Origin: Bacillota bacterium
GTDB lineage: Bacteria > Bacillota > DTU030
NCBI GenBank assembly: GCA_012518435.1
Contig: JAAYSG010000036.1
Location: forward strand, 1 to 44,255
Reading direction: 5' to 3'
Length of the DNA stretch: 44,255 nt
Shown one piece after another: positions 15,904 to 43,130 of the stretch. The translations under genes were made by a program, and so were the position numbers. Position 1 is the first letter of the stretch. Each line of letters opens with the position of its first letter. The notes under the pieces were generated by a model that was not told where the DNA came from, did no database searches, and saw only the letters and a program-made list of their open reading frames with translations.

Positions 15904-15939
15904 GGCTACCCCCTTCCTTGACCGGTTGTGGGCGGATAA

Positions 15940-17060: not shown

Positions 17061-17063
17061 ACC

Positions 17064-20245: not shown

Positions 20246-20362
20246 AAAACTCTCTCCTCCATCATATTTCCAGTTGGTCTAGGCAAGATAAGATAAGCCA
20301 AGGTAGAAGAACAGTGTCCCTTTTCTCCAAGTAGGCAGGGGATTGCCTGTTCCTTATCCCGC

Positions 20363-21250: not shown

Positions 21251-21252
21251 GA

Positions 21253-24461: not shown

Positions 24462-24484
24462 ATATATCTCCCCCAACAGATAAG

Positions 24485-25612: not shown

Positions 25613-25673
25613 AGTGGCTCTCCTATTCACCAAACATAATATAATTCAGTCAAGAAGTGTTTTATTGCCCTGT

Positions 25674-26456
25674 TTAAAGGTAGGATTGAATCATCAAATC
25701 TACGGTGTCGAATATTTGTCTGAATAAGAACCGCAGGGAAACCGCATAAAGGGGAAGCACAACGATAATAGTCGTAACGCCAACTATAATTTTTATTGGT
25801 ATCCCCAGGACAAAAACATTCATCTGGGGTACGGTGCGGGCTATAATCCCCAGGGCCAGGTCAGACAGAAAAAGTACACCGGCCACCGGGAGGGCAATTT
25901 GTAGGGCAAAAACCAATATCTTGGTAAAAAGCCCGGCCAGATCCTGCCACACATGTATAGGGAAGGATATCATTGTGCCCGGGGGAAGGAGATTAAAACT
26001 GCCCATTAAAGCCTGTAAAAGGTAATGATGGCCATCACTTATAAGGAATAATAAGAGAGCAATCAAGTAATAAAAGTTGCCCATCATGGGTATCTGTGTC
26101 CCCGACTGGGGGTCCAAAACATTTACCATTCCAAAACCCATTTGGGTATCTATTATCTGCCCCGCCACATGAATAGCATTAAAGAGTAGTACACCCGCTA
26201 TTCCCAGAATTAGGCCAAAGACTGTTTCTTGTATCACCATAAGTATATAAGGGGAGGGCCCCAGCATAAGGGTTGGGGTCTGTTCCCAGACCAGGGGTAG
26301 GAGGACAGCACTGGTAAGAATTGAGAAGTAGATCTTAACCTGCATGGGGATAATTCTACTACTCCAAAAGGGGGCAACGCTTACCATGGCACTTATTCGT
26401 GCTAATACTAGCAGGAATAAGTGCAGCCCCTCCTGTAAGAAAATAATATCTACCAC
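25674..26456 (-). CDS. fliR: Flagellar export protein FliR
   Basis: FLLVLARISAMVSVAPFW; topology and gene order. Confidence 0.95.
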   Translation of the reverse strand: MVDIIFLQEGLHLFLLVLARISAMVSVAPFWSSRIIPMQVKIYFSILTSAVLLPLVWEQTPTLMLGPSPYILMVIQETVFGLILGIAGVLLFNAIHVAGQIIDTQMGFGMVNVLDPQSGTQIPMMGNFYYLIALLLFLISDGHHYLLQALMGSFNLLPPGTMISFPIHVWQDLAGLFTKILVFALQIALPVAGVLFLSDLALGIIARTVPQMNVFVLGIPIKIIVGVTTIIVVLPLYAVSLRFLFRQIFDTVDLMIQSYL

Positions 26457-26468
26457 CTTTTACTCCCC

Positions 26469-26753
26469 CTAGGGCACATAGTAAGGTATATTGGCCAATA
26501 TCCTATGGGCAAATTGCAGGAGTACCGTCAGCATCCATGGACCCCAAAGGACAATTGCAGCCAAAACTGCCAGGATCTTGGGGATAAAGGTCAGGGTTTG
26601 TTCCTGAATTTGGGTTGTGGCCTGAAATAGGCTTACAGCAACACCAACCAAAAGTCCTGAGGCTAGCATGGGTCCGGCGATTAGCAGTACTGTCAATAAT
26701 GCATCCTGACTGAGGGTGATGATAAAATTCTCGCTCATATGTATTTCCCCCAA
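26469..26753 (-). CDS. fliQ: Flagellar export protein FliQ
   Basis: VGVAVSLFQATTQIQEQTLTFIPKI. Confidence 0.97.
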   Translation of the reverse strand: MGEIHMSENFIITLSQDALLTVLLIAGPMLASGLLVGVAVSLFQATTQIQEQTLTFIPKILAVLAAIVLWGPWMLTVLLQFAHRILANIPYYVP

Positions 26754-26754
26754 A

Positions 26755-27528
26755 CTAATTGAAGCCCAAAATCAGTGAACGTATTACCAAGTGCCAACCA
26801 TCAACCAATACAAAGAGCAAAACCTTAAAGGGTAGTGATATCATTACCGGGGGCAACATCAACATTCCCATGGACATTAGGGTACTGGCCACAACCATAT
26901 CAATTACCAAAAAGGGAACATAAATGAGAAAACCAATTTGAAAGGCGGTTTTTAACTCACTAATCAGGAAGGCGGGAATTAAAACATAAGTGGGGATGTC
27001 TTTCGGACCCCGGGGCCTTTCCAATTTGGCAAGACTCACAATTAGGGCCAGGTCCTTTTCCCTGGTCTGTCGAAACATGAATTCCCGCACAGGTTCAACG
27101 CCTTGAACAATTGCTTCTTCATAGGGAAGCTCCCCCTGTAAATATGGTTGTAGGGATGTCTCATTAATCTGCTGCCAGTAAGGGTTCATGGTAAAAAAGG
27201 TCAGGAAAATGGCCATGGCGATAATAACCTGATTCGGTGGCATATTTTGGGTTGCCAGGGCGCTGCGAACAAAGGATAGGACAACCACAATCCTTGTAAA
27301 GGAGGTCAACATTATCATCAGTGCCGGGGCCAAGGAGAGAATTGTCAGTAGGAACAATATCCGCAGGGTTAAGGCAACCTCCTCAGGCTCCTGCTCCCCG
27401 ATGAAATCAAGGTCTAACCAAGTGGGGGCCGTGGGTTGGGCCCCGGCCACACCATTGGCGGCCAAGAGCAGAAAAAGGACAATGCTGCTTATAAAGTATA
27501 GTTTTCTTGCCCTCCTTGAGCCTATCAT
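26755..27528 (-). CDS. fliP: Flagellar export protein FliP
   Basis: MLTSFTRIVVVLSFVRSALATQNMPPNQVIIAMAIFLTFF; signal peptide; VIDMVVASTLMSMGM. Confidence 0.98.
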   Translation of the reverse strand: MIGSRRARKLYFISSIVLFLLLAANGVAGAQPTAPTWLDLDFIGEQEPEEVALTLRILFLLTILSLAPALMIMLTSFTRIVVVLSFVRSALATQNMPPNQVIIAMAIFLTFFTMNPYWQQINETSLQPYLQGELPYEEAIVQGVEPVREFMFRQTREKDLALIVSLAKLERPRGPKDIPTYVLIPAFLISELKTAFQIGFLIYVPFLVIDMVVASTLMSMGMLMLPPVMISLPFKVLLFVLVDGWHLVIRSLILGFN

Positions 27529-28085
27529 GGATTCTGTTCCCCCCCCGGTGGTGATTCTTCCTTGCCATCAACTTTGTTCCTAATTCCGCCCAGATAGGTT
27601 TCTAAAGTCTTTAGGGAGAGGAATTTGCCTTCGCCTTGGCGGGAAAGTATTTTTTCAAAGGTACCTTCCCCCACATTATGTTCTATTTCTAGCCTAGCCA
27701 ACAAGTCCCCATCCTCTATTCTTTGCAAAAGTGATATATTATCACCGGTTACACCCAAAACGAGGTAATCCTTGCCCAGGCGGATTATAAATATGTTTTG
27801 ATTGGGCCCCAGGGAAAGCCGGTCTAAAATTGCCATGTGTTCTGCTGTTCTTGAATTGGCCCACCGGGATTTTAAAAATCTGGCAGAAATATAAAAAAGG
27901 GCAACGACGATAATTAGGGAAAAGACAAGTCTGACCAAGATTTGAACCGGTTCTATTCCCTTGGGTTCCTCTGGGCCACCATAGGAGGGAAGATATTCGT
28001 CTCCATTGGTTGCGGCGACGGGGCTGCTATTACATATAAGTAGACAAAGGATAGTGGCCATTAGAAGGATGTTTTGTTTATCCAT
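27525..28085 (-). CDS. fliO: Flagellar export protein FliO
   Basis: Signal peptide, single TM, ILDRLSLGPNQNIFIIRLGKDYLVLGVTGDNISLL. Confidence 0.85.
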   Translation of the reverse strand: MDKQNILLMATILCLLICNSSPVAATNGDEYLPSYGGPEEPKGIEPVQILVRLVFSLIIVVALFYISARFLKSRWANSRTAEHMAILDRLSLGPNQNIFIIRLGKDYLVLGVTGDNISLLQRIEDGDLLARLEIEHNVGEGTFEKILSRQGEGKFLSLKTLETYLGGIRNKVDGKEESPPGGEQNP

Positions 28086-28095
28086 TATAGCCCAC

Positions 28096-28464
28096 CTATC
28101 TCAGGGCCTTCCGGACGGCTTCAATAACCCGCTCGGGTTGAAAGGGTTTGACGATGAAATCCAAGGCCCCGGCGCGAATGGCGTCAATAACCATGGCCTG
28201 TTGGCCCATTGCACTACACATAACAACCCGCGCATTGGGATCAAAGGCTTTAATTTGTTTAACCGCTTCAATTCCATCCATTTCCGGCATGGTAATATCC
28301 ATTGTAACCAGATCGGGTTTCAACTCCTTATAGCCCTCCACTGCCTTTTTCCCATCCCCCGCTTCACCGACAACATGAAAGTCATTCTTTGTGAGAATAT
28401 CCTTGAGCATCATGCGCATAAAAGCAGCGTCATCCACAATTAGTATTTTGTGCCCCATGTGCAA
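28096..28464 (-). CDS. cheY: Chemotaxis response regulator CheY
   Basis: ILIVDDAAFMRMMLKDIL, VTMDITMPEMDG, CSAMGQ, KPF. Confidence 0.97.
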   Translation of the reverse strand: MHMGHKILIVDDAAFMRMMLKDILTKNDFHVVGEAGDGKKAVEGYKELKPDLVTMDITMPEMDGIEAVKQIKAFDPNARVVMCSAMGQQAMVIDAIRAGALDFIVKPFQPERVIEAVRKALR

Positions 28465-28496
28465 TCCTCCTTAGCCATGTTTAGACTATAATTTTC

Positions 28497-29570
28497 TTAT
28501 TGCAGGGTTTTCACCCGTTCTTGCAAGCCAACTATACTTGTTACCCGCACACCGAAGTTTTCCCCAATTACTACCACCTCTCCATGGGCAATTAAAGTGC
28601 CGTTTACCAGAATGTCTACCGGTTCCCCGGCTAAATTATCCAGTTCCACTATGGATCCCACCCCAAGGGCTAGGATCTCCTTGAGGACCCGTTTTGTCCT
28701 TCCCAGCTCCACAGACACTTGGAGGGGAATATCAAGCAGGAGTTCCATATTCCCCTTCTCTCCCCCCGTTTCCTGGGGTTTAAGGGGGGCAAATTGCACT
28801 GGTTGAACCACCAAGGGTTGTTCCTGGGACGCGGGTTGTGGGGGTGTACCCTCAATCCTAGGGGCTTCATCTCTGGTTGGGGCAGGGCTGGGCATTTCAG
28901 TGGGTCCCATCAGGGTTTCAACCATCCCCTTGGCAAAGGAAATGGGAAGTACTTGCATTATTTTACTATCTATTAGACCTTCTATGGTGAGGTTAAAACT
29001 AACCTTGACAATATCCGTCACCGCACTCTCGGGTAAAATGTCCTCCAGATCCTTGGCGGCAAAGTCCACAAGTTCTACCAAGGGGGGCATAATGGTTACA
29101 ACCTTATCAAACATTGTCGAAACTGCAGTTGCTGCTGTTCCCATCATCTGATTCATTGCTTCACCAACTGCACTGATCCGTATCTCATCCAATTCAAATT
29201 CTTCCTCTGGTTCCTGACCAAGCATTAGCTGGGCGATGATATAGGCATCCCGCTCCCCCAAAATAAAAATATTAATCCCTTCTAACCCCTGACTGAACTG
29301 GACCTCGACAGTTAGGTGTGGTATTGGATAATCTCGGGAAAATGTCTTTTTATCAATGATGGAAACTGTGGGAGTAGTAATTCTAACCCTATGGCCAATG
29401 ATTTGTGATAGTGTTGTTGCGGCAGTTCCCATGGATATGTTGCCGATTTCCCCCAGGGCATCAATTTCTTCCGGAGTAAGTTTTGCGGCACCACTGGTTA
29501 CATCCCTTGGAGCCGGATCTTTTTTTAGGAGAGCATCTATTTCTTCTTGGGAAAGCAAGTGATTACTCAT
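28497..29570 (-). CDS. fliY: Flagellar switch/CheY-P phosphatase FliY (CheC domain + FliN C-terminus)
   Basis: MSNHLLSQEEIDALLKK; two IDALGEIGNISMGTAATTLS-type CheC helices; SpoA/FliN domain LLDIPLQVSVELGRTKRVLKEIL. Confidence 0.95.
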   Translation of the reverse strand: MSNHLLSQEEIDALLKKDPAPRDVTSGAAKLTPEEIDALGEIGNISMGTAATTLSQIIGHRVRITTPTVSIIDKKTFSRDYPIPHLTVEVQFSQGLEGINIFILGERDAYIIAQLMLGQEPEEEFELDEIRISAVGEAMNQMMGTAATAVSTMFDKVVTIMPPLVELVDFAAKDLEDILPESAVTDIVKVSFNLTIEGLIDSKIMQVLPISFAKGMVETLMGPTEMPSPAPTRDEAPRIEGTPPQPASQEQPLVVQPVQFAPLKPQETGGEKGNMELLLDIPLQVSVELGRTKRVLKEILALGVGSIVELDNLAGEPVDILVNGTLIAHGEVVVIGENFGVRVTSIVGLQERVKTLQ

Positions 29571-30561
29571 AGTCCTCATCCTCCTCCCTTCGCACACCGG
29601 TAATTTCAACAGCCAGTTTATTGCCCACCATCCCCGGTCGGGCACGGAATTTCGGGCGATCTACAATCAATACATCCGCATCGCCCGCCACCTTGCTATC
29701 CAGGGCTATAATATCACCCTTTTGCAAATGCAGTAATTCACCCGCGGTTATGGTCGTTCTTCCTATTTCCACCACTATTGGTATAAGGGAATTGCCGATC
29801 CTGCGTATAATATCCTTTTGCTCAGTTGCTTGAATTCCTTCTTGTTCGGAACTGGAAAACCAGTAACGGGCACTCAATTTTCCCGTAATGGGCTTAAGGA
29901 GAATATAGGGGAAACAAAGGTTCATAAGGCCATAGACCCCATTGATATTAATTTCCAAGGACACCAAGGCGACCATCTCATTTCCCGCCACTATATGAAC
30001 AAAAAGGGGATTGGTTTCCAGGCGGCCAACACGCCCCTCTATGGCCAAGATGTTGCTCCAGGCTTCTCCCAAAACTTTAACTACCTGTTTAGTCAGGCGG
30101 AGGATTATTGTCTGTTCGATCTCCGTCAAGGCACGTTTCTGTTCAGCCCCATCACTTTTTCCTCCCAAGAGACGCTCTAGGATACTAAAGGCCAAAACTG
30201 GGTTAAATTCCATGAGCATCTCCCCCCTCAATCCCTCAATTTGGAAGAGGGCCATTACCGTTGGGTTGAGGAGGGAACGAATAAACTCATCATAGGATAG
30301 TTCCTGGACTGATAGGAGGTTAACCTCAACTGCAGTACGCAAGTGGGCAGAAAAGAAGGTGGCCAACAGGCGGGCAAAATTTTCGTGTATCATTTCAATG
30401 GTGCGGACCTGATCCTTGGAAAAACGGTTGGGCCGGCGAAAATCGTAGGGCTGGATCTTGACCTCCGCCTGTTCTTCGCCAATTTTATCTGCAGTTATAT
30501 CCCCAGATGAAATACTATTTAGGAGTTCATCAATTTCCTGTTGTGTTAATATATCCTGCAT
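29563..30561 (-). CDS. fliM: Flagellar switch protein FliM
   Basis: MQDILTQQEIDELLNSI CheY-binding N-terminus; YDFRRPNRFSKDQVRTIEMIHENFARLL. Confidence 0.97.
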   Translation of the reverse strand: MQDILTQQEIDELLNSISSGDITADKIGEEQAEVKIQPYDFRRPNRFSKDQVRTIEMIHENFARLLATFFSAHLRTAVEVNLLSVQELSYDEFIRSLLNPTVMALFQIEGLRGEMLMEFNPVLAFSILERLLGGKSDGAEQKRALTEIEQTIILRLTKQVVKVLGEAWSNILAIEGRVGRLETNPLFVHIVAGNEMVALVSLEININGVYGLMNLCFPYILLKPITGKLSARYWFSSSEQEGIQATEQKDIIRRIGNSLIPIVVEIGRTTITAGELLHLQKGDIIALDSKVAGDADVLIVDRPKFRARPGMVGNKLAVEITGVRREEDEDYE

Positions 30562-30574
30562 GGTATTCAACCCC

Positions 30575-31027
30575 TCAGTGGGAGATAAGAAAGTCTGTAA
30601 AATAAACGGCATTAATACAGTCTTCGGGTAAAATACGGTTCAATCTATTCTTAAGTTCTGTCTTTAACCCCTGGTAATTTTTCTGTTCTTGCATTTCAGC
30701 CAGACTTTTGCTGCGCAACACGGCAATGATTTCGTCGCGGATAATTGGGACATGCTTTTCCACCTTTTTTTCCATTTTGGCATTGGTAAGGTTAAGGGCT
30801 AAGACAACCTTTAGCATGCTTCGACCCTGCCCCCCATCTAAATTTACATAGAAAGGTTCCAAATCGTACATCGGGCCAAGGGGCGGGGGAGCAGGGTTGG
30901 AACGTAAAGTCATAAAATAAATTGTCCCATAGATACCGCCCAAGACCAGGCACAGTGCCAGGAGGATTGCCACCACGATACGCTGCCATTGCCAGCCTAA
31001 TTTTTTAACCCCAGTATTCATCGCCAA
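30575..31027 (-). CDS. fliL: Flagellar basal body protein FliL
   Basis: Single TM, YDLEPFYVNLDGGQGRSMLKVVLALNL. Confidence 0.92.
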   Translation of the reverse strand: MAMNTGVKKLGWQWQRIVVAILLALCLVLGGIYGTIYFMTLRSNPAPPPLGPMYDLEPFYVNLDGGQGRSMLKVVLALNLTNAKMEKKVEKHVPIIRDEIIAVLRSKSLAEMQEQKNYQGLKTELKNRLNRILPEDCINAVYFTDFLISH

Positions 31028-31788
31028 CTTGCCTCCTCTTCCAGCATCTCTAATCCGGGCTCCCTAACATTTAGGGTTTCCCGCAGTATCACCAGGTCTA
31101 CCCTCCTATTTAAAGGTTGCCCGCCGGGTTTGTTTGGGGCAATGGGTCGATATTCCCCATACCCAGCTACCCCCAGTTGTGCTGGCGAAAAAGGGTAGGA
31201 ATCCAACATGGCCCGTATTACAGAGGTCGCCCGTGCACTGGATAATTCCCAGTTGGATGGATAGCGGTATGTATTGATGGGGAGGTCATCGGTATGTCCC
31301 TCGGCCCGGATATGATTGGGAAGTCCCTGTAGTACCTCAACGACACTATCTAAGATAACCAACGCATCCTCCCTGAGTTCTGCGCTGCCAAGATCAAAGA
31401 GGACACTATCTAAAAATCTTACTACTAGACCCCTTTCCTCCAGGGAAATTAAAATCTGTTCCCCCAACCCCTGCTCCTTGACAATTGCCTCCAACGTTGC
31501 CAGTAATTCCTCCAGGCGGCGTTGTTCTGCTTCCCATTCCCTATCCCTTTCCCCCGGCATACTGGTAGGTTCATAGTCAATTTCCAGGGTTGTGCCCGCC
31601 TCCAAGAGTCCCAGGGCATCCTGTAAGGAATAGAGGACCGCTTGAAATTTACTAACATCTAAGGAAGAAAAGGTGAATAAGAGGACAAAAAAGGTAAGTA
31701 GAAGGGTTACCATATCGCTATAGGTTAGCAGCCATGTTCCTGTTTCGGGTGTATTCCTCTTTTTATTTCTCCTAGAGTATTTCGCCAT
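31018..31788 (-). CDS. motB: Flagellar stator protein MotB (OmpA C-terminal)
   Basis: TWLLTYSDMVTLLLTFFVLLFTFSSLD; IRAEGHTDDLPI; ELSSARATSVIRAM. Confidence 0.95.
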   Translation of the reverse strand: MAKYSRRNKKRNTPETGTWLLTYSDMVTLLLTFFVLLFTFSSLDVSKFQAVLYSLQDALGLLEAGTTLEIDYEPTSMPGERDREWEAEQRRLEELLATLEAIVKEQGLGEQILISLEERGLVVRFLDSVLFDLGSAELREDALVILDSVVEVLQGLPNHIRAEGHTDDLPINTYRYPSNWELSSARATSVIRAMLDSYPFSPAQLGVAGYGEYRPIAPNKPGGQPLNRRVDLVILRETLNVREPGLEMLEEEASWR

Positions 31789-32581
31789 CGTCATCTCCCA
31801 TTTTTCCCATATCCCTTTCGGTTTGGAGCAGGGCCCGATCATTGGGGGCAATAAAGGCCTTTAATTTTTCCTCCACAATACGGGGATTTTCCCCTGCCTG
31901 TATGGATAGAACACCCTCGATGATCAATTCCTTTACCAGAATTTCTTGTTCACTTCTAATGGCCAGTTTCCCCGCCACCGGGATGCAGATTAAATTAGCA
32001 AAAAGGACACCATAAAAGGTGGTTATGAGGGCCAGGGCCATGCTGGGCCCAATGGCTTCTGGCGAATCCAGCTCCCGTAGCATATTGATCAAACCAATCA
32101 ATGTGCCCACCATACCGAAGGCCGGCGCCAGTGCGCCCATGGTGGTAAATATGCCCTGCCCCGAACGGTGTCTTTCCTCAAGGAAAGCCAGCTCAGTTTC
32201 CAGTATATTGCGGACCAGCTCCGGATCCGAGCCGTCTACCACCAGCTGTATCCCTTTTTTAAAGAAATCATCATCGGTATTTTCTGCTTCCTCCTCCAAG
32301 GCCAACAAACCTTCCCTTCGGGCTTTATCGGCAAAGGATACCAAAAGGTTGATAACCGAAGCAGGCCTCATCAGGTCTTTGCGAAAGGCATTGCGCAGCA
32401 CCTTTATAACACTAATGATTTGGCTCATGGGGTAATTGATAAAGGTACCAGCCAGGGTGCCGCCGATGGTAATCATCATGGAGGGTACATCCCAAAAGGT
32501 TTTCAAACTCCCGCTGGAAACAATTGCACCTACTATTAAGCCTATACCCACTACAATGCCGGTTATTGTTGCTATATCCAT
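31772..32581 (-). CDS. motA: Flagellar stator protein MotA
   Basis: MDIATITGIVVGIGLIVGAI; GALAPAFGMVGTLIGLINML. Confidence 0.96.
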   Translation of the reverse strand: MDIATITGIVVGIGLIVGAIVSSGSLKTFWDVPSMMITIGGTLAGTFINYPMSQIISVIKVLRNAFRKDLMRPASVINLLVSFADKARREGLLALEEEAENTDDDFFKKGIQLVVDGSDPELVRNILETELAFLEERHRSGQGIFTTMGALAPAFGMVGTLIGLINMLRELDSPEAIGPSMALALITTFYGVLFANLICIPVAGKLAIRSEQEILVKELIIEGVLSIQAGENPRIVEEKLKAFIAPNDRALLQTERDMGKMGDDDGEIL

Positions 32582-32656
32582 GCCTTCACCCCGTTTTTAT
32601 AGGGGGTGGGACCTGTCCAGCAGTCCCACCCTTTCTCTTCAGGTCTATTTCAAAAT

Positions 32657-33874
32657 TTATCTTTTCAGGTTGACGAGTTCTTGTAACAGCTCATCGGATG
32701 TGGTAATTATGCGGGAGTTGGCCTGAAAACCTCGTTGGGTGATGATCATGTCGGTAAATTCCTGGGCCAGGTCCACGTTGGACATTTCCAAGGAGCTGGG
32801 GCTTATGGAGCCCAGGGAGCCCTGCCCCGCCAGCCCTATTTGGGCTGGGCCGGAGTTATTTGAATCTCCAAAGAGGGTATGTCCCAAATTGGTAAGTCCC
32901 TCGGGGTTGGTGAAGGTGGCCAGGGCTAGACGGGACAGAGGGCGGCTGGAACCGTTGGAATAAACCCCCGTTACCACTCCTCCAGTATCAATTGACACTT
33001 CCACCAGGTCACCATGGGGATAACCGTCTTGGGTGAGCTCCATGTAGGACTCCCCCTTGGCTGCATATTGGGTGACGGCGGAAAAATCCAATTGGAGTTC
33101 ATTGTCGAAACCATCGATCCCAACGGTTGTTTCCAATGTACTCTCTTGGATAAGACCGGAAGCGGAAAAGATAATTTTCCCCTCTGCCTTTCCTTCACTG
33201 CCATCTAAATTATCCCAAACTGCCTCTACTGTCCACTGCTGCTCCACTCCCTCATCCTTGGTAAAAGTAAAGGTTATATCCCGGGCCCTACCAAGATTGT
33301 CAAAAATGGTTATACTGCGGATGTATCTATCCCCATCTGCTGCCAAATTGCCGGAAAAGGTAATTTCCTCCGTAGCCCGGGGTGGAGCCTTTTGATCTTC
33401 TCCGTGGAGCCTTATGTTGGTTATTTCCTGTTCCCATGTTTCCGTGATGGGATCAAAACGCTGTCCCTGTACTATTTGGCCCGCCCCGTTTACCAACATA
33501 CCACTACCATCCCAGCCAAAGGAACCGGCCCGGGTGTAGAGATGACTATCCCCAACTCCCCGGAGAACGAAGAAGCCCTCCCCGTCTATGGCCAGATCTG
33601 TAATCCGACCGGTGCCCTGCAGCCCTCCTTGGGTATGGAAGGTATCGATGGTGCCCACATTCATACCCAAGCCCACCTGCATGGGGTTGGTACCCCCCCT
33701 ACCGGCTTCCGGTCGGCTGGCACCCCGCATATTTTGGCTCAAGGCCTCCTGAAATGTTACCCGGCTCCGTTTAAAACCCGGTGTATTGACATTGGCGATA
33801 TTATGGCCGATCACATCCATACTAGTCTGGTGATTTCTCAAACCCGATACTGCGGAAAACATAGAACGCAGCAT
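32657..33874 (-). CDS. flgE: Flagellar hook protein FlgE
   Basis: MLRSMFSAVSGLRNHQTSMDVIGHNIANVNTPGFKRSRVTFQEAL; C-terminal SNVDLAQEFTDMIITQRGFQANSRIITTSDELLQELVNLKR. Confidence 0.97.
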   Translation of the reverse strand: MLRSMFSAVSGLRNHQTSMDVIGHNIANVNTPGFKRSRVTFQEALSQNMRGASRPEAGRGGTNPMQVGLGMNVGTIDTFHTQGGLQGTGRITDLAIDGEGFFVLRGVGDSHLYTRAGSFGWDGSGMLVNGAGQIVQGQRFDPITETWEQEITNIRLHGEDQKAPPRATEEITFSGNLAADGDRYIRSITIFDNLGRARDITFTFTKDEGVEQQWTVEAVWDNLDGSEGKAEGKIIFSASGLIQESTLETTVGIDGFDNELQLDFSAVTQYAAKGESYMELTQDGYPHGDLVEVSIDTGGVVTGVYSNGSSRPLSRLALATFTNPEGLTNLGHTLFGDSNNSGPAQIGLAGQGSLGSISPSSLEMSNVDLAQEFTDMIITQRGFQANSRIITTSDELLQELVNLKR

Positions 33875-33948
33875 TCTAATACCTCCCTTTTCTACCGCTT
33901 CAATCGCTCGGCGGTTATAAAGGGGCCTCCAATAGTGAGGTCCGGCCC

Positions 33949-34332
33949 CTATCTGATTACAACGGCACTGTCGATATTTGTAAAGACATGTTCCTTCATG
34001 CTCTCATCATCCATGGCCGTGATGACCGTCTTGTTCTTAATGCTAACTATAAAGGCCAGCTCATCCATTAGCACCAGTGATTCCTGCGCGCCCTTGTCGG
34101 CCGCCCTATCCACGGCCTCCTGCAAACTATTAATGTTGCCGGCTGTTAGTGCTATATCCCTTTTTTGCAAACGTTTTAGGGCATGGTGGGAGAATTTAAT
34201 CCTTCCCTGGACCCGTTTAAGAACCCCTTCGAAATCCTCCCTGGCTGAAGCCCCACTTTTTCGCTGTTCTGCCTTTGGTCCTTGTTCCAAGGGCAGTATG
34301 GGCCGTGGGTTATGGTGTATTCTGTTGGTCAC
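33949..34332 (-). CDS. TIGR02530-type flagellar operon protein
   Basis: FEGVLKRVQGRIKFSHHALKRLQKRDIAL...IVSIKNKTVITAMDDESMKEHVFTNIDSAVVI; GTG start by position. Confidence 0.9.
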   Translation of the reverse strand: MTNRIHHNPRPILPLEQGPKAEQRKSGASAREDFEGVLKRVQGRIKFSHHALKRLQKRDIALTAGNINSLQEAVDRAADKGAQESLVLMDELAFIVSIKNKTVITAMDDESMKEHVFTNIDSAVVIR

Positions 34333-34774
34333 TTTCCCCTCCCCCTTCCATTGGCGGAGCCAAGTTGATCTGAAGTACCTGTCCCATTTCAACCCTCTGC
34401 CCGTTCACCAGGAGGGAGGGCCATCCGGCCTCATAGGTAATGCCCGTCACCGGGCCAAAGGAAGTGCCTTCCTCAGTTTGAAAGTATACCTCCTTGCCTA
34501 AAAGTTGCAGTCCTTGGTAGGCTAAACTACCCTTCAATAGTAGACCAATATCATTCAAGTGCCCATTGGTTGCTTGTGTAGCCTCCAGCTGGGAGAATTG
34601 GGCCAATTGGGCAATAAATTCATGGTCTTGCACTGGATTAAGGGGATCCTGGTACTGAATTTGTGACAGAAAGAGTTTTAAGAAATTATCCAAACTACCT
34701 AGGGGTTTTTCCCTCTGGCTCGGTTCACCCCCATGGGTGTTGGTTACAGAACTGGTATAGTTATGCACATACAC
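34310..34774 (-). CDS. flgD: Flagellar hook capping protein FlgD
   Basis: LDNFLKLFLSQIQYQDPLNPVQDHEFIAQLAQFSQLE. Confidence 0.96.
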   Translation of the reverse strand: MYVHNYTSSVTNTHGGEPSQREKPLGSLDNFLKLFLSQIQYQDPLNPVQDHEFIAQLAQFSQLEATQATNGHLNDIGLLLKGSLAYQGLQLLGKEVYFQTEEGTSFGPVTGITYEAGWPSLLVNGQRVEMGQVLQINLAPPMEGGGESDQQNTP

Positions 34775-34838
34775 CTTTTGTCACCTCCTAAGTGGACCTG
34801 CAAGTTTCCAATTGCCCTACCGTGCTTCCCAATGAAAT

Positions 34839-35984
34839 CTAGATGAGGTAATTGAGTCCCCCGGCTTCCAATTCAATATCAGAATAGGTCTGGCCATGGT
34901 TACCCTTTACCTTGGGGGGAAAGGACCTGAAGGCCTGTTGCCTAGTTCCACCCTCCCCCTGTGCTGTGGTTTCATTTTCCAGGCCCTGCCCATCGACAAA
35001 GACGTCGATGTCCATGTTTTCCGGAAGTATATTCTGTTGATTGAGGGTTTCCCGCAATTCAGTAAGGTGGCTGAGGATCAACTCCCTTACCTGGTGATTT
35101 TTAGTTACCAAATGGGTAGAAACCTTCCCTTCCCTATAGAGAAACTCCAGGCGCAGCCTTCCCAGGTGCTCGGGTTTTAGTTGAATTTTCAGCTGGGTTT
35201 CGCCCTTTTCCCGCATCATTTTCACATGGGATACAAGTTCCGGGAGAAGGTTGTCTCTAGCCAGATCAATGCTAGGTGCCTCCAGTGTCTCCTGGCCCAC
35301 TTGAATATCAGCCTTGGTCGCAGGGGAAAATATCTCAACAGACTGGGAATCTTCCTGACCAAGGGGATAATCCGGAGCCCCTTTATGGGGTGTTTCCCCC
35401 TCCCCCTTGGGGGTACTTATTTTAGTCTTGAGTGTCTCGGATTCTATTTTGGTTGCCTTGTACTCAAGGGAGCCTTCACTGCTGGCTAGTTGCCTGGGTA
35501 AATGGGTTTTCTCCAAGGCCAGGTCCCGGGTACTCTCCCTTTCCTCTGGGAATATACCCAAAGCAGTTCCTCCTTCTTCGCATGGCATATCTTCCAGATG
35601 ACCGGCGGGTTCATTATCCAATTGGGAAATGGGAGTTGTGTCTGGGGCACCCCAATGAAAGGCCTCCCCTTCTCCATCTTCAGCGTTTATGTTTGCCAGT
35701 GGAGTTTCAAATGGGCCACCATCATTTATCCTTTCTATTTGTTCTTCATTGAAGTAGGGGATCACACTTTCCCCACATACAGGTTGGAAGGTTACGCCAT
35801 CTTCCGGAAGGGGGGCTTGTCCCTGAATTTCCTCTCCTAAATACAGTTTGGGTTGCTCCCCAAGTAAAGCGGCTATCAAAAGGGGAAAGGCGCTGGAAAC
35901 CGCATCTACTTTTTCTTCCTTAGGATCTAATTTGGGAGCCGTTAATAGGTCGGCCATTACCGGTAAAACATCTATTTTAATCAC
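34839..35984 (-). CDS. fliK: Flagellar hook-length control protein FliK
   Basis: LKIQLKPEHLGRLRLEFLYREGKVSTHLVTKNHQVRELILSHLTELRETL C-terminal domain. Confidence 0.9.
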   Translation of the reverse strand: MIKIDVLPVMADLLTAPKLDPKEEKVDAVSSAFPLLIAALLGEQPKLYLGEEIQGQAPLPEDGVTFQPVCGESVIPYFNEEQIERINDGGPFETPLANINAEDGEGEAFHWGAPDTTPISQLDNEPAGHLEDMPCEEGGTALGIFPEERESTRDLALEKTHLPRQLASSEGSLEYKATKIESETLKTKISTPKGEGETPHKGAPDYPLGQEDSQSVEIFSPATKADIQVGQETLEAPSIDLARDNLLPELVSHVKMMREKGETQLKIQLKPEHLGRLRLEFLYREGKVSTHLVTKNHQVRELILSHLTELRETLNQQNILPENMDIDVFVDGQGLENETTAQGEGGTRQQAFRSFPPKVKGNHGQTYSDIELEAGGLNYLI

Positions 35985-35999
35985 CTCCCTTCGGGTTGT

Positions 36000-36560
36000 T
36001 TATTTCGGGTTGCTCATTCCTTGGGTCAAGCTAGCCGCCTGCTTTGGTTCTAACTGGGCCAGGATCTGGCTTACTTGCTGGGCATCCAACAGGGCTAGGA
36101 TTGCCAGCACTTCCTCCTGGGGCAACTTTGCCAAGATGTTAGCAGCCTGTTGGGGACGCATTTTCCCGTAAACTTCCGCAACCCGGCTTTGGGATTGTTT
36201 CTCACTCTCCAATTCCCGTAATATTGTTTCCAATTCATCAAGCTCTTCCAGAAGCTCCACAACCTCATTGCTTTTTTGTCTAATTTCATTTCGTAGGGAG
36301 GTATTTTCCTCCTCTAGTTTGTTAAGTTCCCTTTGCAGGGCCTGCAATTCTGCATCAAGGGGATCCTTGGTAAGATTGTCTTCGGCCCCATTAGAGATAA
36401 ATCTTTGCTGTAAGTTCGTTTTCAATGCTCCCACATCTACAATGTTAAAGTAGCCCAGGAGAAGTACTGTTAAGTAGCTAATAATGCCCAACAGTATGAG
36501 AATTACTATCCCACTAAGTAGGATCCGCAGGCTTTTTTTCCGCCAAGTCGCCATTGCCAT
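36000..36560 (-). CDS. MotE-like (MgtE N-domain) protein
   Basis: TM + coiled coil + VYGKMRPQQAANILAKLPQEEVLAILALLDAQQVSQILAQL. Confidence 0.85.
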   Translation of the reverse strand: MAMATWRKKSLRILLSGIVILILLGIISYLTVLLLGYFNIVDVGALKTNLQQRFISNGAEDNLTKDPLDAELQALQRELNKLEEENTSLRNEIRQKSNEVVELLEELDELETILRELESEKQSQSRVAEVYGKMRPQQAANILAKLPQEEVLAILALLDAQQVSQILAQLEPKQAASLTQGMSNPK

Positions 36561-36583
36561 AGAAGTGTACCCCCAGCTTTGCT

Positions 36584-37012
36584 TTAGACCCTATTGCCCC
36601 GTAAGACCATTGCCCTACCAATTTCATCCAGCTCCCTTTGGCCTAGCATCCTTTGTCTTTCCTCTTGAACCTCCCTTCGTTTTTTTAGGAGCACTTCCAT
36701 TTTTTCCTTTTCCATGCGGCTTTCTTCCCAGTCTAGGCGGGCCTTTTCCATATCCTCCCTTTTTTCCTCCACTTGTTCCCTTTGAATTTTGATCATTTCT
36801 TCCAGTTTAGCAATGTATTTTGTATACCTCTGCCAGATATTAATTTGTAGTCTTTCTTGTTTGTGGAGTAAATCTTTAACCTGCACTAGTTCACCCCTTA
36901 AATTGTCGAGGCGGTGTGCTTCCAGTTGCCAGCATCTTAGGGCTTGGCTAAAAATACCCCTGGCTTGTTTTTCCTGTTGTTTCCTCAAATCAAGGAGACG
37001 CAGTATTTTCAC
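36584..37012 (-). CDS. fliJ: Flagellar export chaperone FliJ
   Basis: Coiled coil starting LLDLRKQQEKQARGIFSQA; between fliI and motE-like gene. Confidence 0.88.
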   Translation of the reverse strand: MKILRLLDLRKQQEKQARGIFSQALRCWQLEAHRLDNLRGELVQVKDLLHKQERLQINIWQRYTKYIAKLEEMIKIQREQVEEKREDMEKARLDWEESRMEKEKMEVLLKKRREVQEERQRMLGQRELDEIGRAMVLRGNRV

Positions 37013-37018
37013 CCTAAT

Positions 37019-38335
37019 CTAGTTCTCCTTTGCAAAAAGAGCGCGCAGCTCCCGCTGGGTATCTGTTAAACTAACCTTTTCCGTTATTCCTTGCTGCAAA
37101 AACCTTTGGATGCGGGGATATAATGATAGGGCTTCATCAAGCTTGGCATTGCTCCCCGGGATATATGCTCCTATATTGACCAGGTCTTCATTTTCCCGCC
37201 GTAGGGATAGGATTGATTTCACCCGTGCGGCTAGCCCCAATATCTCTTGGTCGACCAGATCAATCATGAGCCGGCTGGTACTGGCCAATATATCAATGGG
37301 TGGATAATGATTTGCCTGGGCCAAAGAACGTGATAAAAAGATGTGACCATCAAGTATTCCGCGGACAGCATCGGCAATGGGGTCATTGGGGTCATCACCC
37401 TCAACCAAAACAGAATATATCCCTGTTATCGAACCCTTTTCCGCAGTACCAGAGCGCTCTAAGAGCCGGGGTAGCAAGGAAAATACCGAGGGAGTATAAC
37501 CTTTACTGGTGGGGGGCTCCCCGGCAGTTAAACCAATTTCCCTTTGGGCCATTGCCAAGCGGGTAATGGAATCCATAAGTAAGAGGACATCCTGGCCCTG
37601 ATCGCGGAAGTATTCTGCTATGGAGGTGGCTAAAAAGGCACTCTTAACCCGGCAGAGGGGTGATTGGTCCGAGGTGGCAACCACTAGGACTGAGCGTTGC
37701 AATCCTTTGTCACCCAGAACCTTTTCTAAAAATTCCCTGACTTCGCGCCCCCGCTCTCCAATAAGGGCAATGACGATGACATCGGCCTCCGTGTTTTTGG
37801 CCATCATTCCCAGCAAGGTGCTTTTACCAATGCCACTCCCGGCAAATATCCCCATCCTCTGCCCCCGGCCACAGGTTAGCAATCCATCTATGGCCCTAAT
37901 ACCCACAGGTAGGGTCCTTGTGATACGGGAACGAAGAAGGGGATGGGGTGGAGTGTTTTCAAGGGGATACATGGTGCTGGTTTTGGGGGGAGGCTTTTTG
38001 TCTAAGGGTTGGCCAAAACCATCCAGGACCCGGCCCAATAATTCCGGGCCGACGCCAACGGCTAGGCGTTTCCCTGTGGCCCTCACAGGTACTCCCGGGG
38101 CTATCGCCGTCATTTCCCCCAGGGGACTTAAAAGAAGGTGATTGGCGCGAAAACCGATGACCTCCGCCCGTAATTTTTGCTGACCAATTAAACATAGTTC
38201 CCCTATACTGGCTGGGGGGCCCTGGGATTCCAATAGCGTCCCCGTCACGCGGATTATTCGGCCTAAAATCCTATGAGGGGTAGCATTTTTTAGGGCTGCA
38301 AAGTATTTTGCTGCGGAAAATGATTTATTCCTCAC
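37019..38335 (-). CDS. fliI: Flagellum-specific ATPase FliI
   Basis: GQRMGIFAGSGIGKSTLLGMMA; LIGERGREVREF; DQGQDVLLLMDSITRLAMAQREIGLTAGEPPTSKGYTPSVF. Confidence 0.98.
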   Translation of the reverse strand: MRNKSFSAAKYFAALKNATPHRILGRIIRVTGTLLESQGPPASIGELCLIGQQKLRAEVIGFRANHLLLSPLGEMTAIAPGVPVRATGKRLAVGVGPELLGRVLDGFGQPLDKKPPPKTSTMYPLENTPPHPLLRSRITRTLPVGIRAIDGLLTCGRGQRMGIFAGSGIGKSTLLGMMAKNTEADVIVIALIGERGREVREFLEKVLGDKGLQRSVLVVATSDQSPLCRVKSAFLATSIAEYFRDQGQDVLLLMDSITRLAMAQREIGLTAGEPPTSKGYTPSVFSLLPRLLERSGTAEKGSITGIYSVLVEGDDPNDPIADAVRGILDGHIFLSRSLAQANHYPPIDILASTSRLMIDLVDQEILGLAARVKSILSLRRENEDLVNIGAYIPGSNAKLDEALSLYPRIQRFLQQGITEKVSLTDTQRELRALFAKEN

Positions 38336-39035
38336 GGAGCATCACTTCTCTGAGCACCTTCTCCAGTTCCTTCAATTGGCTTGTAACCCTAGCATCAATG
38401 GTTCCCATTTCCGTATCAAGTATAAAACCTTCTTCCACCCTGGGGTCGGGTTCCAGGCGGAGCCCTTCCCCGGGGAAAATTAGTAACAGTTCCTTCTCCT
38501 GGGCCTGCAATATTGGTAAAACCTTGGGGTTAGCCCGGATCACTATTTTTTGGCCTAAATCGCCCAGCTTTATTCCCCTGAGCATGCTCAGGAGCAGTGA
38601 ATTATCAAGGTCTAATTCCCGGTGTACTATTTTTTCCGCCATGCGGAGGGCCAGGCTAATAATTTCAGGTTCCGCGGAGTTTATAATATCTATTCTTTCT
38701 CGGCGGGCGTTTTCCACAATGCTCTCCGCTTTCTTTTTTAGGCTGAGGGCTTCCTCCTTCCCTTTCTTATAGCCCTGGGAATAGCCCTCAGAGTGAGCAT
38801 TTTCCCTTATTGCCCTTGCCTCTAGGCTTGCTTCTTCCAATATGGAACGGCTTTGTTCCTGGGCGGCGTAAATTAGAGCATTTGCTTTATTTTCCGCATT
38901 GGATAAAATATGATTTCTTAATATGTGGTATTTGGTATCCTTGCATGGGGTTTTAGTCGTCAATGGGCTAGTATCTTTTTTCCCAATGGTAGAAGCCTGT
39001 GTTGTCACTTGGACACCCTTAATTATCCTAGACAA
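38325..39035 (-). CDS. fliH: Flagellar export protein FliH
   Basis: Ala/Glu-rich coil then ALRMAEKIVHRELD...LRLEPDPRVEEGFILDTEMGTIDARVTSQL. Confidence 0.92.
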   Translation of the reverse strand: MSRIIKGVQVTTQASTIGKKDTSPLTTKTPCKDTKYHILRNHILSNAENKANALIYAAQEQSRSILEEASLEARAIRENAHSEGYSQGYKKGKEEALSLKKKAESIVENARRERIDIINSAEPEIISLALRMAEKIVHRELDLDNSLLLSMLRGIKLGDLGQKIVIRANPKVLPILQAQEKELLLIFPGEGLRLEPDPRVEEGFILDTEMGTIDARVTSQLKELEKVLREVMLREE

Positions 39036-40038
39036 CTATTTCATCCTCCCCACCACGGATAATTATGACCTCACCCACTTCTTCAAGTCTCCGAATTGTA
39101 TTGACTATCCGCTGTTGGGCATCCTCCACATCCCGCAGCCGGACAGGACCCAGATATTCCATCTCCTCCTGGAGTGTCTCCACTGCCCGTTTGGACATAT
39201 TTGCAAAGATCTTCTCCTTTACACTTTCACTGGCAACCTTAAGGGCCAATGGTAGGTCATTGGCCAAGTCAACTTCCCGCAAAACTCGCATGACGGCCCT
39301 ATCATCCAATTGTATAATATCCTCAAAGGTAAAGAGTAATCGCTTGATCTCATCCGCCAGTTCTGGTTCATGCTCCTCCAGATTTTCCAAAATGGTCTTT
39401 TCGGTAGCCCTATCTACTTGGTTTAATACCTCAACCAGGGCCTCAACTCCCCCAACCCGGGTAGAATCTTGTCCCACCAGGTCAGATAGCTTATCTTCCA
39501 GTACCTTTTCTATCTCTTGTATTATTTCCGGCGAGGTACCCTCCATCAAGGCCATCCGCTTTGTCACATCCACTTGTTTTTCCGGTGGGAGGGCCGCTAA
39601 AATGGTTCCGGCCTGTTCCGGCCGGAGAAAGGCTAAAATTAAGGCTATGGTTTGAGTATGTTCACCCTGGATAAAGGTCAGAAGCTGCTGTGGATCCGTT
39701 GTGCGGATGAATTCAAAGGGTTTAACCTGTAAGGATGAGGTTAATCTGTCGATAATGCTCAGGGCCTTTTGGTTGCCCAGGGCCCTTTCTAGAATCTCCC
39801 GGGCATATTCTATGCCCCCCTGGGCTATGTACTCCTGTGCCAGGTACATATTGTATAATTCACTCAAAACAATATCCTTTTGCTCGGGATCAACCTTACG
39901 CATACTGGCAATTTCTAGGGTTAATTCTTCTATTTCATCTTCTCGCAGATGCTTAAACACCTCGGCGGATAGCTCCGGGCCCAAGGTGATTAAAGCAACT
40001 GCAGCCTTTTCCTTTCCCGATAGACTACGGCGGGCCAT
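39028..40038 (-). CDS. fliG: Flagellar motor switch protein FliG
   Basis: LSGKEKAAVALITLGPELSAEVFKHL; EHTQTIALILAFL; LFTFEDIIQLDDRAVMRVLREVD. Confidence 0.98.
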   Translation of the reverse strand: MARRSLSGKEKAAVALITLGPELSAEVFKHLREDEIEELTLEIASMRKVDPEQKDIVLSELYNMYLAQEYIAQGGIEYAREILERALGNQKALSIIDRLTSSLQVKPFEFIRTTDPQQLLTFIQGEHTQTIALILAFLRPEQAGTILAALPPEKQVDVTKRMALMEGTSPEIIQEIEKVLEDKLSDLVGQDSTRVGGVEALVEVLNQVDRATEKTILENLEEHEPELADEIKRLLFTFEDIIQLDDRAVMRVLREVDLANDLPLALKVASESVKEKIFANMSKRAVETLQEEMEYLGPVRLRDVEDAQQRIVNTIRRLEEVGEVIIIRGGEDEIVV

Positions 40039-40049
40039 ATCTAACACCC

Positions 40050-41570
40050 CTAATCTTCGGCCATCCAGGTGCTCAGTAGTTGGGCGACGGTTTCAGGCTG
40101 TTGCCGTATTAAACGCCCAACCTGTTCTAGGAGTTGCTTTCTTTCCACCGCTTCTTCATCCTCTTCCTCCACTTGCACTGCGGCTGCCTCTTCCAATACC
40201 ATTCTATAATCTTCCACCTGTCTTTGCCGTTGGCGCTGGCGGTACAATAAGAATCCAGCAATCAGCAATAACCCCGCACCAACAAGATACAGCCAAAATC
40301 CATATGGTTTTTTCGCTTCGACCAAATCCTCTAATTCCAGAAAGGGGCTATCGGCAAAGGGAAGGCTGGCCACGGTGATTTGGTCACCCCGGGAAAAATC
40401 TAACCCAACGGCCGCGCTAACAGTATCTTCTATGGCAAGCCTTTGCTCCATGGTTAAGTCATTTTCGTCTATGATCACTGCCACAGATAATCGCTTTACC
40501 TGCCCGGGGGCTATTACCCGGCGCTCATGTATTTCTGTAATGTCGTAATTTGTGGTTGTTTCCCTTTCGTAATACTCCGATTCCCCTTCCCCACCCTCCT
40601 GATAAATGGGGATGCCTCCCCCCGGGATGTTGGCATCGGTTCCGGGGACGCCCCCTCTTCCACCTTCACCATGAAAGGAACGTTCCAATTCTTGTATACT
40701 CCGGACAATACCCTCGCCAGCCTGGGTTGGCTCGAAAAATTGGGAGGTTACCTCCATTTGGTCGAAATTAATTTCTGCCTTAACCTTGGTAACCACCTTG
40801 CCCACACCAATGACCATTTCCAGCATATTCCTAAGACCCTGTTCTAGTTCCCTTTCTGTCTGCCTTTGTATTTCGAACTGGTTAGATGTTAAACCCAGGG
40901 CAGTGGTGGAACCTATGTCATGGGACAAAACCTGTCCCCTAATATCGACAACTGTTACATCCTCAGTATCCAAGCCTTCCACACTATGGGATACCAAATG
41001 CACAATACCCCGCACCTGTTCTGGTCGCAATTCACCCACAGTTTCCAGGAGGATAGCCCCGGTTGCCCTCTCCTCTTGGGATAGATAGAGGCGGGGTTCG
41101 GGTATGCTAATTTGGACCCATGCATTTTTAATCCCGGCCATGGCGGTAATTGTACGGGTTAGCTCCCCCTGAATTGCGCGGCGGTACTGGACCCGGCGTT
41201 CAAATTCCGTGGTCCCCAATTTTGTTTCATCGAAGATACCAAAATCTACAACACCACCCCGGGGGATCCCATCCATGGCAAGGCTATTTCGCACACCGTA
41301 TACATTGTCCTTGGGCACCATAATACTACTGCCATTGTCAGCCAGTTGGTAGGAAATACCCATCTCTTCCAACCGGTTCGTGATTTCCCCCGCGTCTTCG
41401 GCGGTTAGGTTAGCAAAAAGCACTTCATACCGGGGTTTGGTTACAAATAACAGGACAAGTATCACCAATAAAGCTGCCGCTAGTACAAGTGCAAATTTAA
41501 TTTTTTTTCTTCGATCCATATTGTTCCAGAAGTGATTGATTTGTTCCCTAACTTCCGGTAGACTTGCCAT
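40050..41570 (-). CDS. fliF: Flagellar MS-ring protein FliF
   Basis: VLFANLTAEDAGEITNRLEEMGISYQL; TKLGTTEFERRVQYRRAIQGELTRTI; two TM segments. Confidence 0.97.
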   Translation of the reverse strand: MASLPEVREQINHFWNNMDRRKKIKFALVLAAALLVILVLLFVTKPRYEVLFANLTAEDAGEITNRLEEMGISYQLADNGSSIMVPKDNVYGVRNSLAMDGIPRGGVVDFGIFDETKLGTTEFERRVQYRRAIQGELTRTITAMAGIKNAWVQISIPEPRLYLSQEERATGAILLETVGELRPEQVRGIVHLVSHSVEGLDTEDVTVVDIRGQVLSHDIGSTTALGLTSNQFEIQRQTERELEQGLRNMLEMVIGVGKVVTKVKAEINFDQMEVTSQFFEPTQAGEGIVRSIQELERSFHGEGGRGGVPGTDANIPGGGIPIYQEGGEGESEYYERETTTNYDITEIHERRVIAPGQVKRLSVAVIIDENDLTMEQRLAIEDTVSAAVGLDFSRGDQITVASLPFADSPFLELEDLVEAKKPYGFWLYLVGAGLLLIAGFLLYRQRQRQRQVEDYRMVLEEAAAVQVEEEDEEAVERKQLLEQVGRLIRQQPETVAQLLSTWMAED

Positions 41571-41651
41571 CCTCTCCACCCCGTTACCCAACTATATTAG
41601 AATATGATCCTTGAATATGAGCAGCGGGGAAAGCAATTTTTCCCCAGCCAA

Positions 41652-41996
41652 TTATACCTGCATCCGCATTAACTCCTGGTAGCCTTCAATTATCTTATTG
41701 CGGACCTGAACAGTTAGTAGTAATGATAGCTCTGCCTTTTCTCCTGCCAAAACTACTTGGTGGAGGTCCTCTATTTCAATTTGCCCTTGGGCAAGATTTC
41801 TGTTTGCCGCATCACTGGCCTGCAAAAGTTGATTGGTTTTGGAAATGGAATTTTTCAACATGTGGGCAAAGGATGGCATCTCCCCCTTGTTTGCTTTGGT
41901 GTCCGGCAGTGGGAATTTCTCTGGGCGGACACTAACCATTTCATTTAGCAACTGATTGTGTACTTGCATTCCCTTTCCCCTTTCCATAAAGGTCAA
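41652..41996 (-). CDS. fliE: Flagellar hook-basal body protein FliE
   Basis: SFAHMLKNSISKTNQLLQASDAANRNLAQGQIEIEDLHQVVLAGEKAELSLLLTVQVRNKIIEGYQELMRMQV. Confidence 0.97.
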   Translation of the reverse strand: MTFMERGKGMQVHNQLLNEMVSVRPEKFPLPDTKANKGEMPSFAHMLKNSISKTNQLLQASDAANRNLAQGQIEIEDLHQVVLAGEKAELSLLLTVQVRNKIIEGYQELMRMQV

Positions 41997-41999
41997 AAC

Positions 42000-42440
42000 C
42001 TAGCGGCCTATTTCCAAGGCTTGGTTGGCCATTGTTTTGAGGGCATCAAAGGCTGTTACATTGGCTTCATAGGCCCGGCTGGCGGAGATGAGATCCGTCA
42101 TTTCCATAACCACATTGACATTGGGATAGTCCACATACCCATCTTCCTTAGCATCGGGGTGTTCCGGGTTGAAGATTCGCCGGGGCGGTGTTGGGTCCCG
42201 CACAATGGCTTCAACCCTTACTCCGCCCGGGGTGGTTTTACCCAGACCTCTGGTGAATACAGGAGGTAAAAAGGGGGTGGCATCCCGCAAGGAAAATACA
42301 GGCACCTGCCGTTGATAAGGGCCACCGTCTTTGGTGCGGGTAGTATTGGCATTGGCCAGGTTATTGGCTATAAGGTCCATACGCAAACGCTGGGCCGTCA
42401 TTCCGGAAGCACTGATGTTAAAACTAGAAAATAGACCCAT
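42000..42440 (-). CDS. flgC: Flagellar rod protein FlgC
   Basis: SSFNISASGMTAQRLRMDLIANNLANANTTRT; YVDYPNVNVVMEMTDLISASRAYEANVTAFDALKTMANQALEIGR. Confidence 0.98.
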   Translation of the reverse strand: MGLFSSFNISASGMTAQRLRMDLIANNLANANTTRTKDGGPYQRQVPVFSLRDATPFLPPVFTRGLGKTTPGGVRVEAIVRDPTPPRRIFNPEHPDAKEDGYVDYPNVNVVMEMTDLISASRAYEANVTAFDALKTMANQALEIGR

Positions 42441-42443
42441 TTT

Positions 42444-42833
42444 CTATCGCCTCCCCTCACTTATGGCCATTTTTAAATTAGCCAAGGATTGGGATATTTG
42501 CCTGCTAATGCTGCGGAAATAAAGTGTGTTCCTGGCCAGTTCCGCCATTTCCAAATCGATGTCCACATTGTTATCATCATTTTTGCCAGTACTGTTTTGT
42601 AAAATTGAATCCCTAACTATGGTAGGTTCGGTATATATGGCAATATGCCTAGGGTGTGTAACCCTAGCCCTTAGGGCGGTACGGTAGTGATTGGCAAAGG
42701 TGGCATCCTTACGTTTGTAGCCAGGTGTTTGCGCATTAGCAATATTATCGGCCAACAATCTTTGCCGGAGGCCGGCATAGTTTAGGGCCTGTCCAAGTGT
42801 ATTTATACTGTTTTCCCCTTCCCAAAAAGACAT
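42444..42833 (-). CDS. flgB: Flagellar rod protein FlgB
   Basis: LGQALNYAGLRQRLLADNIANAQTPGYKRKDATF; RBS AAGGGGGG favours ATG at 42833. Confidence 0.97.
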   Translation of the reverse strand: MSFWEGENSINTLGQALNYAGLRQRLLADNIANAQTPGYKRKDATFANHYRTALRARVTHPRHIAIYTEPTIVRDSILQNSTGKNDDNNVDIDLEMAELARNTLYFRSISRQISQSLANLKMAISEGRR

Positions 42834-42861
42834 AGGCATCCCCCCTTGGTATACTTAGGGA

Positions 42862-42897
42862 TAATAAATAACCCCGGTAAATATAGTTTAACCGGGG
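42862..42897 (-). terminator. Riboswitch-associated intrinsic terminator in flgB leader
   Basis: Minus strand CCCCGGT...ACCGGGG (7 bp, extended by AAA/TTT with one bulge) followed by TTATTTATTAT. Confidence 0.75.
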
Positions 42898-42901
42898 GCA
42901 A

Positions 42902-42987
42902 ATCCCCGGCAACCCGGCTGTCTTGGTTTAGCCAAGATCCAGTGGTTTTGCGTCCCTAAGTCGCCCTAGGTTTGCCCCGGCGAGGAT
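42902..42987 (-). promoter_or_regulatory. Cyclic di-GMP-I (GEMM-I) riboswitch aptamer upstream of flgB
   Basis: Minus strand auccucgccgGGGCAAACCuagggcgacuuaggGACGCAAAACCACUGGaucuuggcuaaaccaagaCAGCCGGGUUGCCgggga matches GEMM-I core; P1 AUCCUC/GGGGAU. Confidence 0.92.
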
Positions 42988-43130
42988 ATAATTATTACAC
43001 ATCTTGCAGCATGGCAACACGTTGCACGTTGTCTGCAATTATTCTATTGTTCTACATTATAACTATACTTTCCTGCTTATATGGAAATATTTTCTGTAGT
43101 CCTTTAGTCCCTTCTTTTTCTGGGAATGGC

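Follow-up and report, generated by a model that had tools for sequence, protein, structure and literature searches.

The window, a stretch of 44,255 nt from an uncultured Bacillota bacterium, carries on its minus strand a leader between codY (43904-43131) and flgB, the upstream gene encoding CodY and the downstream gene being the first of a long collinear series of flagellar and chemotaxis genes (Table 1). Translation of flgB most likely starts at the ATG at 42833, with AAGGGGGG upstream as its ribosome-binding site (RBS, 42847-42840). The fla/che operon of B. subtilis likewise starts at the codY-flgB junction. From flgB onwards the series comprises flgC, fliE, fliF, fliG, fliH, fliI, fliJ, a gene for an FlbB/FliG-like coiled coil, fliK, flgD, a PF12611 protein, flgE, motA/B-type stators, fliL, fliM, fliY, a CheY-type receiver, fliO, fliP, fliQ, fliR, flhB, flhA, flhF, a MinD/FlhG-type ATPase, a PilZ/YcgR protein, cheA, cheW, cheC, cheD, a FliA/WhiG-family sigma factor and a 105-aa protein without family. 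The operon length of ~28 kb given in the original prediction is right because these same-strand genes run from 42833 to 14792, an interval in which a search for strong intergenic terminators found none, up to a terminator-like hairpin at 14690-14674. Its further assertion that the leader controls nearly all flagellar, stator and chemotaxis genes goes somewhat too far as regards the flagellin, hook-associated and cap genes, which were not identified among the operon ORFs and could be reachable only indirectly, via the FliA/WhiG-family sigma factor (15903-15127).

Table 1. Positions in the window of the leader elements and of the operon that follows them.
Feature	Position	Strand	Basis
Sigma-H-like promoter motif GCAGGAAAG-N12-GTAGAAC, predicted leader start ~43040	43049..43076	-	predicted; motif shared by the two families of the class
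c-di-GMP-I aptamer, type 2 (GYRA loop)	42905..42986	-	RF01051, 54.0 bits
P1 5' strand AUCCUC	42982..42987	-	partner strand 42902-42907; pairing in 100% of cells across four relatives
Aptamer 5' strand CCGGGGCAAA, 5' half of alternative antiterminator, holds ligand-contact G20 = 42976	42971..42980	-	dominant in predicted ligand-free nascent fold
GCGA tetraloop of P2	42961..42964	-	sequence, Rfam alignment
P3 segment; where the tetraloop receptor would lie, CU 42936-42935 pairs with AG 42923-42922	42922..42936	-	sequence; docking putative
CCGGGG, 5' half of local antiterminator, holds ligand-contact C92 = 42909	42904..42909	-	invariant in four relatives
P1 3' strand GGGGAU	42902..42907	-	pairing with 42987-42982
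UUUGCCCCCGG, 3' half of 5'-strand antiterminator, overlaps terminator 5' arm	42892..42902	-	folding
Intrinsic terminator hairpin CCCCGGU-N12-ACCGGGG	42872..42897	-	isolated hairpin -12.0 kcal/mol; kept in four relatives
U-rich tail UUAUUUAUUAU	42861..42871	-	sequence
flgB, first operon gene	42444..42833	-	TIGR01396, 82.8 bits (cut-off 59)
fla/che operon, flgB to fliA-type sigma factor and 105-aa ORF	14792..42833	-	gene content, same strand
Terminator-like hairpin ATACCCCATTGGGGTAT, T7 tail, operon end	14674..14690	-	sequence

A cmscan of the whole window against Rfam returned three matches, namely two tRNAs and c-di-GMP-I (RF01051), the last at 42986-42905(-) with 54.0 bits (gathering cut-off 35), an E-value of 6.1e-8 and a full-length alignment to the model (positions 1-87), which bears out the c-di-GMP-I (GEMM-I) aptamer originally proposed here. 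The ligand-contact residues G20, A47 and C92 (PMC4744006) are present as G42976, A42949 and C42909 by manual mapping on Vc2 numbering, and from these sequence features the ligand would be c-di-GMP. The PilZ/YcgR gene inside the operon and four GGDEF proteins above cut-off in the genome, a 1.7 Mb draft, also count for a c-di-GMP reading. P2 is closed by a GCGA tetraloop, and no 11-nt tetraloop receptor was found in P3, which is a plain helix (UCUUGG/CCAAGA) with gaps in the Rfam alignment at that place. The aptamer thus lacks the type 1 combination of a GNRA loop with the corresponding 11-nt receptor and has the GYRA loop without corresponding receptor that characterizes type 2 (PMC11218506). 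It shares with type 2 the core, the ligand contacts, the GCGA loop and the missing 11-nt receptor, but adds a CU:AG helical step at the receptor position, coupled with the GYGA loop.

Among the collected c-di-GMP-I sequences, 11 of 14 GYGA-loop aptamers have a CU:AG helix in the receptor register by a strict rule, and 13 of 14 by eye; of the three that fail the strict rule, two have a shorter helix, UCUU/AAGA. With GAAA loops the count is 3 of 66 aptamers, and two of these three seem to be produced by the rule itself. The association with loop type has a Fisher p of ~1e-8, on sequences that are not independent, 8 of the 14 GYGA cases coming from the window's family. These counts are restricted to true four-base loops; a GUGA-loop pattern search mostly caught GGUGAAA, which represents ordinary GAAA loops. 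In solved RNAs GYGA loops go with AR/YU receptors and GCGA loops are always found with AG/CU, the c-di-GMP riboswitch being among the loop-helix interactions tabulated (PMC3494683), and this loop/receptor rule is therefore already known from other RNAs. Because CU:AG goes with GYGA loops and the published rule predicts such a partner, docking in the window aptamer has probably been exchanged rather than lost. If so, the type-2 c-di-GMP-I aptamers described as 'receptor-less' would in fact contain an exchanged loop-receptor module.

The P1, antiterminator and terminator segments of the original prediction can all be read at the positions it gave, between codY and flgB. P1 has 6-7 pairs including one U.G, G42981-C42908 being the possible seventh. 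Downstream of the aptamer, and before flgB, follows the intrinsic terminator with its T-rich tail, its 3' arm ACCGGGG lying at 42878-42872 and its 5' arm CCCCGG (42897-42892) doubling as partner of CCGGGG in a local antiterminator hairpin (-11.7 kcal/mol in isolation). A second antiterminator is predicted between CCGGGGCAAA and UUUGCCCCCGG. Each of the two predicted pairings excludes both the bound aptamer and the terminator, and the proposed mutual exclusion of P1 and antiterminator is accordingly supported by sequence and folding, with two such pairings instead of one. Both give OFF logic because each removes the terminator arm together with a ligand-contact nucleotide (G20 or C92). The bound aptamer, for its part, is compatible with the terminator because P1 (42907-42902) and the terminator stem (42897-42872) do not overlap. 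Without ligand, the emerging terminator 5' arm would be captured by CCGGGGCAAA (42980-42971) or by CCGGGG (42909-42904) and RNA polymerase would continue into flgB; with c-di-GMP bound, both strands would be locked in the aptamer and P1, leaving the terminator arm free to form the hairpin, and transcription would stop before flgB. OFF control by ligand-favoured termination appears to be the best reading, in agreement with the direction first proposed, and we regard it as highly probable that this type-2 c-di-GMP-I riboswitch acts on the codY-linked fla/che operon as a transcriptional OFF switch. The physiological effect would be that high c-di-GMP means no flagella.

The window's order comprises five genomes and its class thirteen. 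A c-di-GMP-I aptamer directly precedes flgB in four genomes of the window's family (G000, G004, G002 and G003) and in three of a second family of the class (G005, G006 and G007), and is absent from that position in G008, G009, G010 and G012. The four family leaders all preserve the P1 strands, CCGGGGAUUU, CCCCGGU, CCGGGG and the U-tract, and the linker just 5' of the aptamer is unalignable. P1 and the terminator pair in 98.1% of cells (slid controls 27-64%) and the local antiterminator in 100% (slid controls 35-79%), all six of its pairs being invariant. Substitutions in P1 are one-sided only (U.G to C-G and C-G to U.G) and the antiterminator is unchanged; no two-sided pair changes were found in the four-member alignment, and the argument therefore rests on conservation, not covariation. 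Covariation evidence in the close family is thin because the order and family searches cover only five genomes, and the three roles borne by the same bases (P1 3' strand, antiterminator and terminator arm) would explain its absence. The second family has different sequences on a similar plan: in G007 its terminator ACCCCA/UGGGGU has changed compensatorily to ACCUCA/UGAGGU, and pairing is possible between CUGGC, adjacent to P1, and GCCAG in the 3' arm of the terminator. As for the promoter, the genome contains 23 copies of the motif GCAGGA-N13..17-GTNGAA but 2 of its reversed control, and a sigma-70 promoter scan stayed at chance level.

In ligand-free window RNA extending to the terminator 5' arm, CCGGGGCAAA and UUUGCCCCCGG are predicted to form a dominant long helix that contains a single bulged C, leaving the local hairpin at P=0.005 in this nascent ensemble. 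The antiterminator as originally drawn, which is the local one, therefore stands as to its segments and is predicted with P=0.997-0.999 in the nascent RNA of G004, G002 and G003, but in the window RNA the 5'-strand pairing is favoured. There is a real possibility that the same OFF switch uses the local hairpin in the window too, the longer pairing reflecting a preference of the folding program: the local hairpin forms locally and early, its pairs are those invariant in the family, and its 10-bp form in G004 beats shuffles. Against this, a perfect CAAA/UUUG match lengthens the 5'-strand pairing in the window, and in Carboxydocella the best complement is independently of the 5'-strand kind (9 bp, UCAGGGCAA/UUGCCCUGG, matched by 0 of 300 shuffles). 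A 9-bp complement between aptamer strand and terminator arm is also present in G254, and in the window both antiterminator kinds have contiguous complements of 7 bp (shuffling p=0.02 and 0.04). On the folding models the 5'-strand pairing would dominate in window RNA. More tentatively, the system may comprise two antiterminators, one per aptamer-base strand and both removed by ligand, with family members differing in their reliance on each, combined with a replacement of GAAA/11-nt docking by GYGA/CU:AG. In the window, findpath puts the barrier to the terminator fold at 20.8 kcal/mol when the start is the ligand-free nascent fold and at 4.4 when it is the aptamer-formed fold, and the relatives point in the same direction (11.2 vs 3.6, 20.2 vs 11.3 and 12.7 vs 8.9); all these values are rough, coming from an energy model. 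At equilibrium P(terminator) in window RNA is 0.966 free and 0.96 with the aptamer (ligand bonus), and switching, if it works, must therefore be kinetic. The aptamer fold was not seen in the unconstrained minimum free energy (MFE) structure of the full leader, as is common for riboswitches with tertiary contacts.

The predicted predominance of the terminator fold in ligand-free RNA at equilibrium would also suit an ON switch, in which the ligand-bound aptamer prevents termination, as known for class I from Bc2 of Bacillus thuringiensis (PMC6366702). We consider this improbable: the terminator stem does not overlap P1, so that aptamer and terminator coexist, no terminator strand belongs to the aptamer, and the functional class I switches of C. 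difficile are OFF in 7 of 7 cases (PMC6366702). The direction of class I switches cannot be extrapolated between bacteria, and in other species some are ON switches or work with no terminator at all (PMC6366702). A similarly small probability attaches to a decayed or non-responding aptamer, comparable with Bc1, which by itself does not respond to c-di-GMP, in front of a constitutive attenuator. The window copy does score lowest of the genome's five c-di-GMP-I copies, is without the 11-nt receptor and has a short P1 with a U.G pair, but it preserves G20, A47, C92 and the GNRA loop, its loop/receptor pair seems to have been exchanged, not lost, and four diverged genomes retain the unit as a whole. 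Slightly less probable still is translational control, with the RBS sequestered by AUCCCU (42863-42858) or otherwise and hairpin 42897-42872 incidental; AUCCCUAA 3' of the U-tract is complementary to the RBS region and also to the UUAGGGA segment of P2, with either of which it could pair, and two aptamers of the same genome (L001 and L004) stand directly before an RBS with no terminator between. However, G004, G002 and G003 keep the terminator but lack the AUCCCU segment, flgB is much further downstream in G002 and G003, and an intrinsic terminator lies 3' of the aptamer in every flgB-linked leader examined, across many Bacillota families.

Ligand-favoured termination thus remains the preferred reading, and it has a precedent in the C. 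difficile flgB leader invoked by the original prediction, where the literature confirms that c-di-GMP acting on Cd1/Cdi-1-3 causes termination before flgB of a 23 kb operon (PMC6200980, PMC6366702). Both leaders combine a class I aptamer with a terminator before flgB and with OFF logic, predicted in the case of the window, and both head an early flagellar operon of >20 kb that encodes a flagellar sigma factor. The window belongs to a different Bacillota class and has the codY-flgB junction, and the two are likened by their arrangement. To judge from its sequence, the window element is most likely of the flgB OFF-switch kind known from C. difficile, in another lineage and with a variant sensor, and only the dual antiterminator and the swapped loop-receptor may be new. 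A paper on whole-riboswitch covariation (PMC13273304) contains nothing on c-di-GMP.

The arrangement extends well beyond the class. A phylum sample includes at least 6 further genomes with c-di-GMP-I before flgB (G087, G122, G254, G089, G028 and G106), and among 80 named flgB loci 15 have a c-di-GMP-I or c-di-GMP-I-GGC aptamer just upstream. Carriers include Carboxydocella thermautotrophica, Thermincola, Syntrophomonadaceae and Halanaerobium, whose leaders share with the window the order aptamer, terminator, flgB, whereas their expression-platform sequences are unrelated. Since unrelated expression platforms share this arrangement across many Bacillota families, direct regulation of the master flagellar operon through a c-di-GMP termination riboswitch is probably not peculiar to C. 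difficile. The flgB-linked aptamers vary in form. Three of them (L045, L048 and L099) are better matched by RF03167 (c-di-GMP-I-GGC) than by RF01051, two reach 174-187 nt through a long P3 insertion (L061, 2726-2899, Firmicutes HGW-8; L091, 2716-2902, Thermincola), and L073 (2327-2718) has two near-identical c-di-GMP-I units in tandem before flgB, each with its own terminator.

The other c-di-GMP-I copies of the window genome precede two TasA/camelysin-like genes adjoining S26-type signal peptidases, a secreted transglutaminase-like protein and a UDG-FapA pair, and one signal may therefore act on flagella and matrix via the same RNA class. Aptamers directly before TasA/camelysin-like genes are found at L001 and L003, both in the window genome, and at L008 and L013, with PF12389 in L001 and the adjoining S26 signal peptidase in L003. 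In L001 the end of the aptamer, CCGAUU, is complementary to AAUCGG at the RBS, a potential pairing that would produce an ON switch. Six loci from both families of the class (L004, L010, L012, L028, L031 and L032) have a gap of 14-16 nt between c-di-GMP-I and the start of a secreted protein, which in L004 Pfam identifies as transglutaminase-like, and these leaders leave no room for a terminator. In the second family, c-di-GMP-I also precedes a protein that by eye from its translation is HD-GYP-phosphodiesterase-like (L022, L024, L025 and L026), which would mean feedback on c-di-GMP.
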